Shown here piece by piece: positions 6,286 to 14,383 of a stretch of 38,128 nucleotides of DNA. The DNA comes from Albidovulum sp. Its GTDB lineage: Bacteria > Pseudomonadota > Alphaproteobacteria > Rhodobacterales > Rhodobacteraceae. Position 1 is the first letter of the stretch. Each line of letters opens with the position of its first letter. The stretch covers positions 1 to 38,128 of the forward strand of contig WFPA01000256.1 in assembly GCA_015487815.1 (NCBI GenBank). Reading direction: 5' to 3'. A program made the position numbers and the translations under genes. Under the pieces are notes generated by a model. It was not told where the DNA came from. It made no database searches and worked only from the letters and a program-made list of their open reading frames with translations.

Positions 6286-7086
6286 TCAGCCTCCGGTCTC
6301 GTCCGTGCGGGCTAGGGCAGAGCGTTTCGAGAAGATCGAGGTGGTGATGACGCCGATCGTCACCAGGGTGATGAGGATGGTCGAAAGGGCGTTGATTTCG
6401 GGGCTCACGCCGAGGCGGATCTGCGAGAATACCCGCATCGGCAGGGTGGTCGCCGCCGGCCCCGACACGAAGGAGGCGATCACCAGATCGTCGAGCGACA
6501 GGGTGAAGGAGAGCAGCCAGCCCGACACCACCGCCGGAGCGATCACCGGCAAGGTGACGAGGGAAAAGGCCTGAAAGGGCGTGGCGCCAAGGTCGAGCGC
6601 TGCTTCCTCGAGCGCCCGGTCGAAGGTGATGAGACGCGAGGAAACCACTACCGCCACATAGCACATCGAGAAGGTGGCATGGGCAATGATGATCGTCGTC
6701 ACGCCCCGGTCGACATTCATGGCAATGAAGAGGAGAAGCAGCGACAGGCCGAGGATGACGTCGGGGATCACGAGGGGGGCGAAGATCATCCCCGAGAACA
6801 GCGTCCGCCCCGGAAAGCGGCTGATGTGCACCAGCACCCAGGCCGCCATCGTGCCGAGCACGGTTGCGATGCTGGCCGATGCGAGCGCGACCTTGAGGGT
6901 GACGAGAGCCGCCTGAAGGAAGGCCTCGTCATGGAACAGCTTGACATACCAGCGGGTCGAGAAGCCGGCCCAGACCGTCACCAGCTTCGAGGCGTTGAAG
7001 GAATAGATCACCAGCACCAGGATCGGCAGGTAGAGGAAGGCGAAGCCGAGAGTGAGCGAGACGATGTTGAAACGCGAGAGCTTCAT
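6286..7086 (-). CDS. potC: Polyamine (spermidine/putrescine) ABC transporter permease, PotC/PotI-like
   Basis: MKLSRFNIVSLTLGFAFLYLPILVLVIYSFNASK; EEAALDLGATPFQAFSLVTLPVIAPA EAA loop. Start taken at 7086, 4-nt overlap with the upstream permease. Confidence 0.88.
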   Translation of the reverse strand: MKLSRFNIVSLTLGFAFLYLPILVLVIYSFNASKLVTVWAGFSTRWYVKLFHDEAFLQAALVTLKVALASASIATVLGTMAAWVLVHISRFPGRTLFSGMIFAPLVIPDVILGLSLLLLFIAMNVDRGVTTIIIAHATFSMCYVAVVVSSRLITFDRALEEAALDLGATPFQAFSLVTLPVIAPAVVSGWLLSFTLSLDDLVIASFVSGPAATTLPMRVFSQIRLGVSPEINALSTILITLVTIGVITTSIFSKRSALARTDETGG

Positions 7087-8021
7087 TCGTCGGCCCTCCG
7101 TTGCTGGCGCTCGGCATGGCGCTGGAAGAGGAGGATCGGCAGCACCAGGATCAGGAGCAGCACCACCGCCACGGCGGAAGCCAGCGGCCAGTCGCGATTG
7201 GCGAAGAACTCGTCCCACAGCACCTTGCCGATCATCAGTGTGCGCGAGCCGCCGAGGAGCGAGGGGATGACGAACTCGCCTACCGCCGGAATGAACACGA
7301 GAAGGCAACCGGCGATGATGCCGGGGCGCGAGAGCGGCCAGGTAACCAGCCAGAAGGCCTGAAGGCGCGAGCATCCCAGATCGAGCGCCGCCTCGATCAG
7401 CGAACGGTCGAGCCGGTCGAGGCTGGAGAAGATCGGCAGCACCATGAAGGGCAGATAGGCATAGACGATGCCGATATAGACCGCGACGGGCGTGCCGAGG
7501 ATCACCAGCGGCGAATCGATCAGCCCGAGCCCCATCAGCAGCTGGTTGAGAAAGCCGTTCTGGCCGAGGATCCCCATCCATGCATAGACGCGGATCAGGA
7601 AGGAGGTCCAGAAAGGCAGGATCACCAGCATCAGGAGGATCGGTCGCCAGCGCTCGGGCGCCCTGCTCATCGCATAGGCGATCGGATAGCCTGCAAGCAG
7701 GGTCAGAAGGGTGGAGAGTGCGGCGATCTGGAGCGAGGAGAGATAGGCCCGCCAGTAGAGATCGTCCTCGGTCAGCCAGACATAGTTCTCGAGATCGAAG
7801 GCGCGGAACATCGCCACGACGCCCTCCCAGCCGCGGGAAAGGTCGAGCGTGGGCGTGTAGGGCGGGATGGCGAGAACGCTGTCGGAGAGCGAGATCTTGA
7901 GGACGATGACGAAGGGGGCGAGGAAGAAGAGCCCGAGCCAGAGATAGGGCACGGCGATGAGCAGGGCGCGCCGGAGCCGCTCTCCTGGATTGCCCGTTCT
8001 GCCGCTTGCCGTGTCGCTCAT
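7083..8021 (-). CDS. potB: Polyamine ABC transporter permease, PotB/PotH-like
   Basis: MSDTASGRTGNPGERLRRALLIAVPYLWLGLFFLAPFVIVLKISLS; IEAALDLGCSRLQAFWLVTWPLSRPGI EAA loop. ATGA overlap with the ATPase gene. Confidence 0.88.
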   Translation of the reverse strand: MSDTASGRTGNPGERLRRALLIAVPYLWLGLFFLAPFVIVLKISLSDSVLAIPPYTPTLDLSRGWEGVVAMFRAFDLENYVWLTEDDLYWRAYLSSLQIAALSTLLTLLAGYPIAYAMSRAPERWRPILLMLVILPFWTSFLIRVYAWMGILGQNGFLNQLLMGLGLIDSPLVILGTPVAVYIGIVYAYLPFMVLPIFSSLDRLDRSLIEAALDLGCSRLQAFWLVTWPLSRPGIIAGCLLVFIPAVGEFVIPSLLGGSRTLMIGKVLWDEFFANRDWPLASAVAVVLLLILVLPILLFQRHAERQQRRADE

Positions 8022-9178
8022 CGGGTCAGCACCAGGCCGGCGGTTTCGTCGAAAGCGAACCAGACCCGGTCTTCCCAGCTGAATTCGCGCCGGGCGATAC
8101 GGCGACGATTGGGACTCTGGACCTTGAAGCGCATCCCGGCCGGTCCGGTGATGTGATAGGTCGAGAGATTGCCGAGATAGCCGATATCCTCGATCCGGCC
8201 CTGCCAGGCATTGACCAGGCCTTCGGGTCTCTCGGCGCTGACCGCGATCTTCTCGGGCCGGATGGCGAAGGTCACCCGCGTGCCGACCGGGGCATCCACG
8301 TCGGAGCGGGTCAGGATGGGCGCGGCGCCCTCGGCCCATTCGATGGTGAGGCGCCCCCTCTCGGCAGAGGTCACAACGCCTTCGATCAGGTTCACCTCGC
8401 CGATGAAATCGGCGACGTAGCGCGAATTGGGTTGTTCATAGATCTCCTCGGGCGTGCCAACCTGCACCAGCCGCCCGTGGTCCATAACCGCGATGCGGGT
8501 GGCCATGGTCATCGCCTCCTCCTGATCATGGGTGACGATGATGAAGGTCGTGCCGAGCCGCTCCTGGATGTCCACGAGCTCGAACTGGGTCGCGGCTCTG
8601 AGCTTGCGGTCGAGGGCGGCGAGGGGCTCGTCGAGCAGCAGGATGCGCGGCCGGCGGGCAAGCGCCCGCGCAAGCGCCACGCGCTGGCGCTGACCGCCCG
8701 AGATCTCGTGCGGGCGGCGGTGCGCGAACTTCTCGAGCTGCACCAGCCGCAGCATCTCGGCCACGCGATCGGCGATCTCGGCCTTGGGCAGCCCGGCGCG
8801 CCTGAGGCCGAAGGCAATGTTGTCGGCCACGGTCAGGTGGGGAAACAGGGCATAGGACTGGAACATCATGTTGACCGGTCGCCGGTTGGGCGGGATCGGG
8901 ACGAGATCCTCGCCGCCGAGGAGGATTCGCCCGGCGCTCGGCGTCTCGAAGCCGGCGATCATTCGCATGAGCGTTGTCTTGCCGCAACCCGAGGGGCCGA
9001 GAAGGGCGAAGAACTCTCCCTCGTGGATGTCGAGCGAGAGATCGGCGATGGCGGTGAAGTCGCCGAAGCGCTTGGTGACGTTCTCTAGCCGGATCAGCGG
9101 CTCTGCCGCCGGGTCCTGCCAAGGAGGCAGGGCTGCCGTCTCGCCGCTGGCTGATGCTTGAGCCTTGGCCGTGTCCAT
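8018..9178 (-). CDS. potA: Polyamine ABC transporter ATP-binding protein, PotA/PotG-like
   Basis: Walker A GPSGCGKTT, signature SGGQRQRVALARAL, Walker B ILLLDEPL, C-terminal TOBE-like domain. Confidence 0.92.
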   Translation of the reverse strand: MDTAKAQASASGETAALPPWQDPAAEPLIRLENVTKRFGDFTAIADLSLDIHEGEFFALLGPSGCGKTTLMRMIAGFETPSAGRILLGGEDLVPIPPNRRPVNMMFQSYALFPHLTVADNIAFGLRRAGLPKAEIADRVAEMLRLVQLEKFAHRRPHEISGGQRQRVALARALARRPRILLLDEPLAALDRKLRAATQFELVDIQERLGTTFIIVTHDQEEAMTMATRIAVMDHGRLVQVGTPEEIYEQPNSRYVADFIGEVNLIEGVVTSAERGRLTIEWAEGAAPILTRSDVDAPVGTRVTFAIRPEKIAVSAERPEGLVNAWQGRIEDIGYLGNLSTYHITGPAGMRFKVQSPNRRRIARREFSWEDRVWFAFDETAGLVLTR

Positions 9179-9249: not shown

Positions 9250-10356
9250 TCAGTGCCCGGTCTTGATCCGGGTCCAGATGCGGGTCACCAGCCGCTGGGT
9301 CTTCAGGTCATAGGGTGTGGTGACGTAGAGCTTCTTCAGCGTCGCCTCGTCGGGATAGACCGCGGTATCGTTCAGGATCTCCGGGTCGATGTATTTCTGG
9401 CTTTCCTTCACGCCGTTGGCATACCAGACGTAGTTGGTGTTGTCGGCGGCGATCTTCGGGTCGAGCATGAAGTTGATGAAGGCATGCGCCCCTTCGGGGT
9501 TTGGCGCGTCGGCCGGGATCGCCATCTGGTCGAACCACATCACCGCCCCTTCCTTCGGGATCGAATAGGCGATGTGAACGCCGTTGTCGGCCTCGTCGGC
9601 CCGATCCCTCGCCTGCAGCACGTCACCCGACCAGCCGATGGCCACGCAGATGTCGCCATTCGCGAGGGCGTTGATGTACTCGGACGAATGGAACTTGCGG
9701 ACATAGGGACGCACCGCCATCAGCACCGGCTCGGCCTTCCTGATGACGGCCGGGTCGTGGCTGTCGGGATCCTCGCCGATGTAGTTGAGCGCGGCCGGGA
9801 TCATCTCCGTGGGCGCGTCGAGGAAGTGCACGCCGCATTCGGCGAGCTTCTTCATGTATTTCGGGTCGAAGACCAGCGCCCAGCTGTCCACAGGCGCATC
9901 ATCGCCCAGCACCTCCTTGACCTTGTCGATGTTGTAACCGATGCCGGTGGTGCCCCACATGTAGTTGACCGAATACTGGTTGCCCGGATCGTAGGCCGCA
10001 ACGCGCTGGGCGATCTCGGGCCAGACATACTTCAGGTTGGGCAGCTTCGACTTGTCGAGCTTTTGGAACACCCCGGCCTGGATCTGCCGGGCAAGGAAGG
10101 TCGCCGAGGGCACGACGACATCGTAGCCGGTATGGCCGGTCAGCAGCTTGGTCTCGAGGATCTCGTTCGAATCGAATGTGTCATAGATCACCTTGTAGCC
10201 CGTGGCCTTCTCGAACTTCTCGAGCACCCCTTCGCCGATATAGTCCGACCAGTTGTAGACATGGACTTCGCTCTTCTCTCCGCCGGCGAGGGCTGCGGTG
10301 CCAAGGGCGGCGCTTGCGGCGAGCGCGGCCGCGAATGCGATAGCCGTCTTCTTCAT
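9250..10356 (-). CDS. potF: Putrescine-type periplasmic substrate-binding protein, PotF-like
   Basis: Signal peptide MKKTAIAFAAALAASAALGTAALA then VHVYNWSDYIGEGVLEKFEKATGYKVIYDTFDSNE. Confidence 0.9.
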   Translation of the reverse strand: MKKTAIAFAAALAASAALGTAALAGGEKSEVHVYNWSDYIGEGVLEKFEKATGYKVIYDTFDSNEILETKLLTGHTGYDVVVPSATFLARQIQAGVFQKLDKSKLPNLKYVWPEIAQRVAAYDPGNQYSVNYMWGTTGIGYNIDKVKEVLGDDAPVDSWALVFDPKYMKKLAECGVHFLDAPTEMIPAALNYIGEDPDSHDPAVIRKAEPVLMAVRPYVRKFHSSEYINALANGDICVAIGWSGDVLQARDRADEADNGVHIAYSIPKEGAVMWFDQMAIPADAPNPEGAHAFINFMLDPKIAADNTNYVWYANGVKESQKYIDPEILNDTAVYPDEATLKKLYVTTPYDLKTQRLVTRIWTRIKTGH

Positions 10357-10410: not shown

Positions 10411-10424
10411 AAGTTGATCAAAGT
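10411..10424. promoter_or_regulatory. Candidate operator site 1 for the adjacent GntR regulator
   Basis: AAGTTGATCAAAGT (reverse complement ACTTTGATCAACTT) with a perfect TTGATCAA core; matches site 2 at 12 of 14 positions. Lies between divergent potF and gntR. Confidence 0.6.
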
Positions 10425-10479
10425 CGGCGGTGCTGGCAAGTGTTTTTTGGAGAGAACGCTAAGCGGGCGAGGCAATGCG

Positions 10480-11169
10480 ATGATCCAGGACAGGGGCCCG
10501 GAGGCGGATGAAGGCGCGGCCCGCCCGTCCCTGCCGCGGCACGAGGCCGTCTGGCGCGCCTTGCGGGAGATGATCGTGACGGGGGCTTTCGCGCCGGGCG
10601 AGGCCGTTACCATCCAGGCTCTGGCCACGCGCTTTTCCGTCTCGATGACGCCGGTGCGCGAGGCGTTGCGGCGCCTCGTGGCAGAAGGGGCGCTCGAGAT
10701 GCTCGGCAACCGGCGGGTGCGCCTGCCCGAGATCGACCGGGCACGGATGGTCGAGCTGGCCATCGCCCGCCGCGCTCTGGAGCCGCATCTGGCAGAAATG
10801 GCCGCCGCGCGGGCCGATGAGGCGCTGATCGCGCGGCTCGAGGCGCTGGATGATGCCGTCGATGCCGCGATCGAGAAAGGCGATGTGCCGGCCTACATGC
10901 GTGCCAACCACGCCTTCCATTTCACCATCTACCGCGCAGCGCACTCCACCGTTCTCTTGCCGATCGTCGATGGGCTGTGGCTGCGGTTCGCCCCGCTTTA
11001 CCGGATCGTCGCCGGCAAGCAGGGCACCGACCGGCTGGTCGATCAGCACGAGGCCGCAATCCGCGCGCTGCGGGCCGGCGACGCGCCGGCGGCGCGACGG
11101 GCGGTCGCTGCCGATATCGACCAGGGAATTCAGCTCGTCTGCTCCGCCCATGGCTGGGGCGGGATCTGA
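10480..11169 (+). CDS. GntR family transcriptional regulator, FadR/FCD subfamily
   Basis: N-terminal wHTH (GAFAPGEAVTIQALATRFSVSMTPVREALRRLVAEGALEM) and FCD-like C-terminal domain (MRANHAFHFTIYRAAHS). Start chosen at ATG 10480. Confidence 0.9.
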   Translation: MIQDRGPEADEGAARPSLPRHEAVWRALREMIVTGAFAPGEAVTIQALATRFSVSMTPVREALRRLVAEGALEMLGNRRVRLPEIDRARMVELAIARRALEPHLAEMAAARADEALIARLEALDDAVDAAIEKGDVPAYMRANHAFHFTIYRAAHSTVLLPIVDGLWLRFAPLYRIVAGKQGTDRLVDQHEAAIRALRAGDAPAARRAVAADIDQGIQLVCSAHGWGGI

Positions 11170-11198
11170 CGCCCTGCGGGGAGCGAAGTCGGGCTTGC

Positions 11199-11212
11199 AA
11201 TTTGATCAAATT
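11199..11212. promoter_or_regulatory. Candidate operator site 2 for the adjacent GntR regulator
   Basis: Perfect 14-bp palindrome AATTTGATCAAATT, about 40 bp upstream of the aminotransferase start codon. Confidence 0.62.
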
Positions 11213-11251
11213 TCCGACAGGCAGGGGCGAGGATCAGCAAGGGAGCCTTCG

Positions 11252-12649
11252 ATGACAGGAGCGCGCAATCATCCGCCCACCGGGAGCATGCAGGCAGCCG
11301 ATGCCGCACATCATCTGCACCCCTTCACTCATCATCGTGAGCTTGCCGGAAAGGGCGTGCGGGTGATCACGCGGGCCGAAGGGGCGTGGATCTTCGACTC
11401 GGAGGGCAACCGCATTCTCGACGCCATGGCCGGGCTGTGGTGCGTCAATATCGGCTACGGGCGTCACGAACTGGCCGATGCGGCGGCGCGTCAGATGCGC
11501 GAGCTCCCTTATTACAACACCTTCTTCCAGTCGGCCCATCCGCCGGTGATCGCCCTTGCCGAAAAACTCGCGCAGCGCGCGCCCGATGGGCTTGATCACG
11601 TGTTCTTCGCCACGGGTGGTTCCGATGCGAACGATACCAACATCCGCCTCGTGCGACATTACTGGGCGCGCAAGGGAGAGCCGCAGCGGCGCATCATCAT
11701 CTCGCGTCACAACGCCTATCATGGCTCGACCATGGGGGCCGCCTCGCTCGGAGGCATGGCGCCGATGCACGGGCAGGGCGGGTTGCCGATCGCCGACATC
11801 GTCCACATCATGCAGCCCCACTGGTGGGCCGAGGCCGAGGAGGGAGAGGGGCGCGAGGAATTCGGTCTGCGGGCCGCGAGGGCACTCGAGGCCGAGATCG
11901 AACGTCTCGGGCCGGAAAACGTCGCCGCCTTCATAGGTGAGCCGGTCCAGGGAGCCGGAGCGGTGATCGTGCCGCCCGAAAGCTACTGGCCCGAGATCCA
12001 GCGCATCTGCCGCAGATATGGCATTCTCCTGATCGCCGACGAGGTCATCACCGGCTTCGGCCGCACGGGGCGCTGGTGGGGGTCCGAGAGCTTCGGCATC
12101 GCTCCCGACATCATGACCATCGCCAAGGGGCTGAGCTCGGGCTATGCGCCGATCGGCGGGTCGATCGTCTCGCGCGAGATCGCAGAAACCATCGCCGACG
12201 AGGAATTCTTTCACGGCTATACCTATTCGGGGCATCCGGTGAGTGCCGCCGTGGCGCTCGAAAATCTGCGCATTCTCGAGGAGGAGGGCATCATCGACCG
12301 GGTGCGGGAGGAAACCGGCCCCTATCTGGCCGAACGCTGGCGGGAACTCATGGATCATCCGCTTGTCGGCGAGGTGCGGATCCGCGGCTTCATGGCGGCG
12401 GTGCAGCTCACCCCCGACAAGGCTCGCCGTGCGTCCTTCGCCGCGCCCACAGGCACTGTCGGGCTGATCGGTCGCGAGAAGGCGATCGCAAACGGCATCG
12501 TCATGCGCCATATCGGCGACAGTCTCGTGATCTCGCCGCCGCTCATCCTCTCGCGCGAGGAGATCGACCTCATGATCGCCCTTGCCCGCCGGACACTCGA
12601 CGACACGCTCGCCGAGGTCCGCGCTCAGGGGCTGATGGAGGCGGGCTGA
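11252..12649 (+). CDS. Class-III (PLP) aminotransferase, putrescine--pyruvate / omega-amino acid:pyruvate type
   Basis: LLIADEVITGFGRTGRWWGSE and MTIAKGLSSGYAPIGG (PLP lysine) motifs; start at ATG 11252, ORF open further upstream. Confidence 0.88.
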   Translation: MTGARNHPPTGSMQAADAAHHLHPFTHHRELAGKGVRVITRAEGAWIFDSEGNRILDAMAGLWCVNIGYGRHELADAAARQMRELPYYNTFFQSAHPPVIALAEKLAQRAPDGLDHVFFATGGSDANDTNIRLVRHYWARKGEPQRRIIISRHNAYHGSTMGAASLGGMAPMHGQGGLPIADIVHIMQPHWWAEAEEGEGREEFGLRAARALEAEIERLGPENVAAFIGEPVQGAGAVIVPPESYWPEIQRICRRYGILLIADEVITGFGRTGRWWGSESFGIAPDIMTIAKGLSSGYAPIGGSIVSREIAETIADEEFFHGYTYSGHPVSAAVALENLRILEEEGIIDRVREETGPYLAERWRELMDHPLVGEVRIRGFMAAVQLTPDKARRASFAAPTGTVGLIGREKAIANGIVMRHIGDSLVISPPLILSREEIDLMIALARRTLDDTLAEVRAQGLMEAG

Positions 12650-13264: not shown

Positions 13265-13509
13265 CGCACTTTCCCTCTCCTTTGCCGCGCCTCTCCCTGT
13301 GCCGGCGCGGCTTCGGTTTCAGGGCCCGGGCTTGCCGGATCTGGAATGCCTCTTGTGCCCATCACCGAGACTGATTCGTGAATCGCGCCATAATCGGCAT
13401 CTCTTCGGGGCAAGATCATGGCAATTGCCCTTGAAGAGACCGTTAACGGTGCGAATTTGATCGATTTCCATCGGCTGCCCTCAGCTCGGGCTGCTTGCAG
13501 GTCCGGGTG

Positions 13510-13690
13510 CTTCTCCCTATCTTCGCACGAGGCGGGCTCTGCCCGGTGCGTGAGAGGCCCAATTCCAGTGGCCACAAATCATCTCGAGGGAGCTGGCTCT
13601 GCCGGAACCGTGGTTCCGGTATCCCGGCGCCCACCTGGGTAACCAGGCTCTCGGGAATTCGACGCCTCCACGGCCGGTGCGGACCCGTCG
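13510..13690 (+). ncRNA. ssrS: Candidate 6S RNA (boundaries approximate)
   Basis: Immediately upstream of 5-formyl-THF cyclo-ligase, the classic 6S neighbour. Manual folding gives TTCGCAC(13522-13528)/GTGCGGA and GAGGCG/CGCCTC closing helices, a GGGCTCTGCCC element, hairpins CCGGAACC-GT-GGTTCCGG (13602-13619) and CCTGG-GTAA-CCAGG, and no convincing coding signal. Not checked with a covariance model. Confidence 0.6.
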
Positions 13691-13738: not shown

Positions 13739-14383
13739 ATGGCCGAGACCGCAGGCGCAGATGAGGGTGGCATTGCCGCCGCCAAGGCGCGGCTGAGGCG
13801 CGAAGCCCTCGCCCGGCGTCGGGTGTTGCGGACAGCGGAAGATGCAGCGGCACGCGAAGCCCGGTTCAATCACCATCTTTTCGCATTGTTTGAACGTCTT
13901 GCCCGGCCGGGCACGGCGCCGATTTCGACCTATCTGCCGATCGGCACGGAAATCTCGCCATTGCCGGCCATGAGGCGGCATGTGGCGCGTGGTGGGCGGA
14001 TCTGCCTGCCGGTGATGCAGGGAGCGGACCGGCCGCTGGCCTTTCGCCCCTGGGAGCCGGATGCGCCTCTGGCCAGGGGAGCTTTCGGCGTGATGGAACC
14101 GGTCGAAGGGCCATGGCTGACGCCGGCGGCGCTTCTTCTCCCCCTTCTTGCCTTCGACCGGCAGGGACGGCGCCTCGGCTATGGCGGCGGCTATTACGAC
14201 CGCACCCTTGCCGCGCTGCGCGCCAAGGCTGCACCTCTTGCCATCGGTCTGGCCTGGGCCGGGCAGGAGGTCGCGGCCGTGCCCGCCGAAACCACCGACG
14301 CCCCGCTCGACGGCGTTCTGACCGAGGAAGGCTTCCTGCCGCTCACGCCGGCCGCGATTGCGCTCGGGGAAGGGATCGCCTAA
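13739..14383 (+). CDS. 5-formyltetrahydrofolate cyclo-ligase
   Basis: 214 aa; GYGGGYYDRTLA motif and the 5-FCL N-terminal fold (ARLRREALARRR). Confidence 0.92.
   Translation: MAETAGADEGGIAAAKARLRREALARRRVLRTAEDAAAREARFNHHLFALFERLARPGTAPISTYLPIGTEISPLPAMRRHVARGGRICLPVMQGADRPLAFRPWEPDAPLARGAFGVMEPVEGPWLTPAALLLPLLAFDRQGRRLGYGGGYYDRTLAALRAKAAPLAIGLAWAGQEVAAVPAETTDAPLDGVLTEEGFLPLTPAAIALGEGIA

Follow-up and report, generated by a model that had tools for sequence, protein, structure and literature searches.

The window, a 38,128-nucleotide stretch of DNA from Albidovulum sp., carries a gene for an FCD-type GntR regulator placed between a divergent potFGHI-like operon and a gene for a SpuC-like aminotransferase (Table 1). 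These identities, a GntR protein with an FCD domain, a class-III aminotransferase and a potFGHI-like importer, had been proposed in an initial annotation and are borne out by profile and structure matches. The regulator joins a GntR winged helix–turn–helix (58.6 bits, cut-off 27) to an FCD domain (88.1 bits, cut-off 24.3), the composition of the FadR subfamily, and its fold likewise matches FCD structures. Six rather than seven FCD helices characterize the VanR group, and the predicted structure of the regulator has six (residues 87–109, 114–133, 136–153, 159–181, 190–198 and 202–224); the best PDB match of its AlphaFold2 model (pLDDT 90) is McbR/YncC (4p9f).

Table 1 Genes and predicted operators of the cluster, in window coordinates
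Feature	Position	Strand	Basis or context
potI-like permease	6286..7086	-	Best NCBIfam match PotI
potH-like permease	7083..8021	-	Best NCBIfam match PotH
potG-like ATPase	8018..9178	-	TIGR01187, 401.9 bits (cut-off 355.6)
potF-like polyamine-binding protein	9250..10356	-	Profile matches and solved-structure alignment
Operator 1 (predicted), ACTTTGATCAACTT	10411-10424	-	Shared potF/gntR promoter region
gntR, GntR HTH + FCD regulator, 229 aa	10480..11169	+	PF00392, PF07729
Operator 2 (predicted), AATTTGATCAAATT	11199-11212	.	Perfect 14-bp palindrome 5' of aminotransferase gene
SpuC-like class-III aminotransferase, 465 aa	11252..12649	+	NF005682

The aminotransferase falls within the SpuC-like subfamily (NF005682, PRK07480; 730.9 bits, cut-off 510), and enzymes named putrescine aminotransferase and polyamine:pyruvate transaminase are among its nearest relatives of known structure; we read it as a probable class-III member of the polyamine/omega-aminotransferase group. 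On the transport side, the potF-like protein can be aligned from end to end with polyamine-binding proteins of known structure, E. coli PotF included. All four transporter proteins score below the E. coli-based PotFGHI equivalog cut-offs (PotF 459.5 against 636 bits, PotG 450.7 against 613, PotH 393.2 against 489, PotI 322.1 against 476); the score of the ATPase does exceed the cut-off of TIGR01187, a more general polyamine subfamily model. For potH and potI the scanned frames were slightly longer than the listed genes, whose starts were chosen so that the potH ATG overlaps the potG stop and the potI ATG overlaps the potH stop.

Two 14-base sites flank the regulator gene. Site 1 sits between two divergent start codons, the potF ATG (10356, minus strand) at a distance of 54 bp and the gntR ATG (10480) at 55 bp, and its palindromy is confined to the inner TTGATCAA. 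Between the end of site 2 and the ATG of the aminotransferase gene (11252) there are 39 bp. Re-reading of the window upheld both sequences as first annotated, together with their identity at 12 of 14 positions and the perfect palindrome of site 2. Without mismatches, the 14-mer AMTTTGATCAAMTT occurs at these two sites only in the whole 2.81-Mb genome; both of its 'M' positions are nearly uninformative, and the informative core is TTTGATCAAA, of which the window holds two matches with at most one mismatch (0.37 expected) and the rest of the genome a single copy (C150:5666). The motif is thus rare (three places with TTTGATCAAA, two with the 14-mer), where frequent occurrence genome-wide had been named as grounds for dismissing it. 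A homology search with the regulator as query turned up a near ortholog, 91% identical, in a MAG from the same genus (Albidovulum sp.; L046, hereafter the sister genome). Because that genome has one exact palindromic site only, the copy at C150:5666, which stands 5' of an unidentified ORF and 3' of a transporter gene, is probably a chance match. Near matches in contigs C61, C85, C95, C230 and C253, which have no recognised polyamine gene beside them, were set aside.

The same search returned many further gntR orthologs, 42–55% identical and from Rhodobacteraceae where named. With the near ortholog left out, 79 ortholog loci (regulators 45–55% identical) formed the footprint set. A match to TTTGATCAAA with at most one mismatch is present on the upstream side of gntR in 72 of them, on the downstream side, facing the aminotransferase gene, in 78, and on both sides in 71. 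In the gntR flanks sites number 2.58 per kb, ~70 times the 0.037 per kb of the remainder of these loci; within 350-bp flanks, 72 loci have an upstream and 76 a downstream site, compared with averages of 1.6 and 1.25 loci for dinucleotide-shuffled flanks. The consensus drawn from the 73 and 79 best sites is again TTTGATCAAA, with almost invariant core positions. In the sister genome, operator 1 is identical, and a 30-bp block containing site 2 is identical inside an otherwise diverged spacer. Conservation at orthologous operons, the lack of which the initial annotation had named as refuting, is found at 72/79 and 78/79 loci, and this persistence between species is the decisive evidence for the sites. 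The recurrence of the arrangement in some 80 related bacteria makes the switch look real, and both 14-base signals are very probably docking sites of the GntR-type protein encoded between them.

The co-occurrence of the sites with this particular gene bears on whether another transcription factor, such as a global nitrogen or carbon regulator, might bind them with gntR as a mere neighbour. Some unlinked sites in relatives do adjoin genes without obvious polyamine function; against this, the site tracks the gntR clade, flanking the gene on both sides even in loci where potF does not adjoin it (for example L058, L069 and L116), is missing beside paralogs, has pathway-specific targets and is nearly absent elsewhere in the window genome, and we give the idea very little credence. 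That matches to the motif can arise by chance is illustrated by a third, weaker one in the window, AATTTGATCGATTT (13454–13467), which sits upstream of a 6S RNA gene, is not kept in the sister genome and was set aside. As an account of sites 1 and 2, function-less chance palindromes are already refuted by the observed conservation, given its statistics and the rarity of the motif in the genome, and their probability is practically nil. Nor do we favour cooperation of the two sites through a DNA loop across gntR, modelled on the 190-bp loop proposed for tetrameric Atu1419 of the VanR group (PMC7797058): the 788-bp spacing in the window comes to ~75 turns at 10.5 bp, but in a comparison of 72 loci, where the sites are 683 to 1004 bp apart, helical phasing was not significant, and we rejected looping as very improbable.

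In 20 loci (within L046–L125) a second site, TTTGATCATATT, follows AATTTGATCAAATT by exactly 29 bp towards the aminotransferase gene, a spacing that is a non-integer number of helical turns. This second site has been lost from the window, where only GATC is left at about that place (11232–11235).

We consider it highly probable, from these patterns of sequence, that the palindromes are operators of the FCD-GntR protein and that this acts as a dimeric repressor of itself, potFGHI and the aminotransferase gene. In the mechanism that we propose, the dimer would, without inducer, block the divergent potFGHI and gntR promoters from operator 1, making the regulator autoregulatory, and the aminotransferase promoter from operator 2; once a polyamine entered and was metabolised, an effector would free the protein from DNA, so that uptake and first-step catabolism would rise together. 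Here we infer direct binding, repression rather than activation, and the nature of the effector. The same operators and regulator could instead serve an activating or dual-acting protein that, ligand-bound, switches on uptake and catabolism: the sign of regulation is unreadable from sequence, and a search of both spacers recognised no sigma-70-like promoter whose overlap with a site would favour repression. Activation is nonetheless unlikely, since operators 39–55 bp from start codons suit occlusion better and most FCD-GntR catabolic regulators are repressors. Atu1419 is an example of the repressor type (PMC7797058).

As to the effector of the proposed repressor, it could be putrescine or a carboxylate derived from putrescine, the latter being more typical of FCD pockets. 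Usual ligands of FCD domains are small organic acids (PMC4494728), and the residues conserved in the regulator clade (Asn143, His147, His190, Asp212, Arg97 and Arg175) would suit a pocket for metal and carboxylate no less well than one for a diamine. The inducer may thus be a carboxylate downstream of putrescine, such as GABA or a gamma-glutamyl intermediate; the earlier suggestion of putrescine or a catabolite fits the predicted gene content.

How far the regulon extends appears to differ between lineages. The window genome (G000) has a puuD–puuA–puuB group across contigs C57 and C7 (L169, L166), which have 131 identical end bases in common. No TTTGATCAAA-like site with two or fewer mismatches was found near this group in the available sequence, nor any around puuA of the sister genome, and we rejected the group as a regulon member; it is therefore likely to be under other control, and the regulon here seems to go no further than potFGHI, gntR and the aminotransferase gene. 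This matches the compact regulon originally proposed, the predicted sites of the window genome being restricted to the local cluster.

In relatives, by contrast with this local set, six orthologous loci carry a PuuA-type (glutamine-synthetase-like) gene in the interval that separates gntR from the aminotransferase gene, and a DAO-family oxidase gene (PuuB type) lies 3' of the aminotransferase gene in many. Unlinked exact copies of TTTGATCAAA stand shortly 5' of genes for agmatinase (438 bits, cut-off 302) and GabT (759, cut-off 724), and also 5' of genes for a GabD-type dehydrogenase, glutamine-synthetase-like proteins and a class-I glutamine amidotransferase (PuuD type), as well as for aldehyde dehydrogenases, other class-III aminotransferases and putative ABC permeases named by eye. 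The PuuA, PuuB and PuuD labels are putative and were assigned from domain and neighbourhood. In the genomes with unlinked copies the reversed control pattern was rare or absent, and some of the unlinked sites examined (for example L133 and L174–L176) have no obvious polyamine gene beside them; this, like the lack of a site at the puuD–puuA–puuB group of the window genome, speaks against the proposed regulon. As TTTGATCAAA precedes these pathway genes, the regulon in relatives would comprise the catabolism of agmatine and putrescine through GABA to succinate.

Two of the relatives, G014 and G029, have far more TTTGATCAWA sites (~16–32 per strand) than the window genome, an abundance that suggests either a far broader regulon there or the presence of several regulators that are related. 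Operator-like sequences also occur between ClpB-like and PyrF-like genes (named by eye) in two distant genomes, at G000:C85:3859 (L006) and near position 497036 of G004:C1 (L136), probably by chance.

By function, the predicted system resembles those of PauR in Pseudomonas aeruginosa and PuuR in E. coli, whose job, the autoregulated control of genes for polyamine uptake, gamma-glutamylation, GabT and related functions, it would share: predicted operators precede genes for polyamine uptake and catabolism, and gntR itself, both here and in relatives. PauR and PuuR repress polyamine catabolism, PuuR leaving DNA on sensing putrescine and PauR acting as well on its own gene, on GabT2 and on the spu operon for uptake (PMC7901475, PMC9397018). 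They are XRE-cupin proteins, whereas the window regulator has only GntR HTH and FCD domains, with neither XRE nor cupin found, and in the window genome the predicted regulon, unlike theirs, is the local cluster only. The protein types being unrelated, the regulator would be a non-homologous counterpart of PauR and PuuR, not a member of their family; by descent, it is an FCD-GntR protein.

Among solved relatives, E. coli McbR/YncC is closest by both profile and fold (TM-score 0.85), with 26% identity over the structural match, and like the regulator it has no Arg at the position of Atu1419 Arg45 (Ile instead). The regulator scores 93.9 bits against a cut-off of 225 for the McbR equivalog (NF008504). 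The genes controlled by E. coli McbR differ from this cluster. Atu1419 and the VanR group (PDB 6z74, 6za3) share the FCD-GntR fold, a 10-bp palindromic operator and the Asn-x3-His motif (Asn143, His147), and of the VanR metal site of Asn and three His, Asn143, His147 and His190 are conserved and the last His is apparently Asp212, judged by spacing. Atu1419 differs in its operator (ATGTATACAT against TTTGATCAAA here), in having Arg45 where the regulator has Met56, and in its pathway.

FadR-subfamily operators have common TKGT/ACMA boxes (PMC4494728), from which the TTTGATCAAA consensus departs: placed against the version whose spacer is 2 nt, it reads TTTG-AT-CAAA and has TG/CA where GT/AC is expected. 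Members with deviating motifs are also listed in that subfamily (PMC4494728), and a non-canonical operator is for this reason a variant compatible with membership. In Atu1419, Arg45 reads the G of GT (PMC7797058), and the aligned residue in the regulator is Met56. Residue 46 of the regulator corresponds to FadR Arg35 and to HTH position 28, where an Arg selects for G/C and against A/T at the K of TKGT; with Asn in the wing-Gly position the tendency is towards A/T, though not significantly (PMC4494728).

A paralogous clade offers a comparison. It comprises 13 Rhodobacteraceae FCD-GntR proteins (L033–L045), is represented in the window genome by C223:1106–1786, and is ~40% identical to the regulator; no potF or aminotransferase ortholog was found within ±1.5 kb of the paralog. 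The flanks of the paralogs carry a TTTGATCAAA-type site in 0/13 and 1/13 cases and TGTGATCACA in 5/13. Both clades mostly have Met at position 56 (93/97 orthologs, 11/13 paralogs), and their putative operators have an inner TGATCA in common. They differ at residue 46 (Gln in 86/97 orthologs, Arg in all 13 paralogs), in the wing (Asn77-Arg78 in 97/97 orthologs, Ser-Gly in the paralogs) and in the outer operator base, T for the orthologs and G for the paralogs. This co-variation of residue and operator appears to agree with the published rules, as a correlation only and with a wing alignment ambiguous by one residue. Met56 alone was rejected as the cause of the T-versus-G difference, being present in both clades, and so was Val59 versus Ala59 as sole cause, L068 having Ala together with the T motif. 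We hold it somewhat more probable than its negation that a Rhodobacteraceae-wide FCD-GntR clade fills the role of PuuR and PauR, that its non-canonical operator came with the loss of Arg45 (Met56), that the change from Arg to Gln46 and the Asn77-Arg78 wing correspond to the outer G-to-T change relative to TGTGATCACA, and that the regulon contracted in the Albidovulum-like lineage.

Elsewhere in the window genome (G000:C245, L009, ~11640–11690), two copies of ATGTGATCACAT lie ~25 bp apart between genes of XdhC/CoxF type and VWA type (CoxE), named by eye; they are possibly operators of the paralogous FCD-GntR regulator.

Local catabolic regulons under an FCD-GntR protein are a familiar kind. Searches of the open-access literature on TTTGATCAAA, on TTGATCAA in connection with GntR proteins and on polyamine regulators of the GntR type from Rhodobacterales returned nothing relevant, nor did that literature yield a named regulator of polyamine use in Rhodobacteraceae, and within it the operator and the pathway assignment appear to be new. 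If correct, the proposal would supply a concrete regulator, operator and gene list, a counterpart of PauR and PuuR that is alike in function but unrelated as a protein, and two natural regulator clades in which to study how FCD-GntR proteins change their DNA specificity.

Two further elements adjoin the sites discussed here. A short stem rich in G+C, with a T run behind it (window 10423–10447, + strand), directly adjoins operator 1 in the gntR leader and is identical in the sister genome; it might be a terminator or attenuator. A 6S RNA gene (RF00013, 55.9 bits) lies at 13533–13689 on the + strand, just 5' of an ORF at 13739 that resembles, by eye, 5-formyltetrahydrofolate cyclo-ligase, the gene for which is the usual neighbour of 6S RNA.
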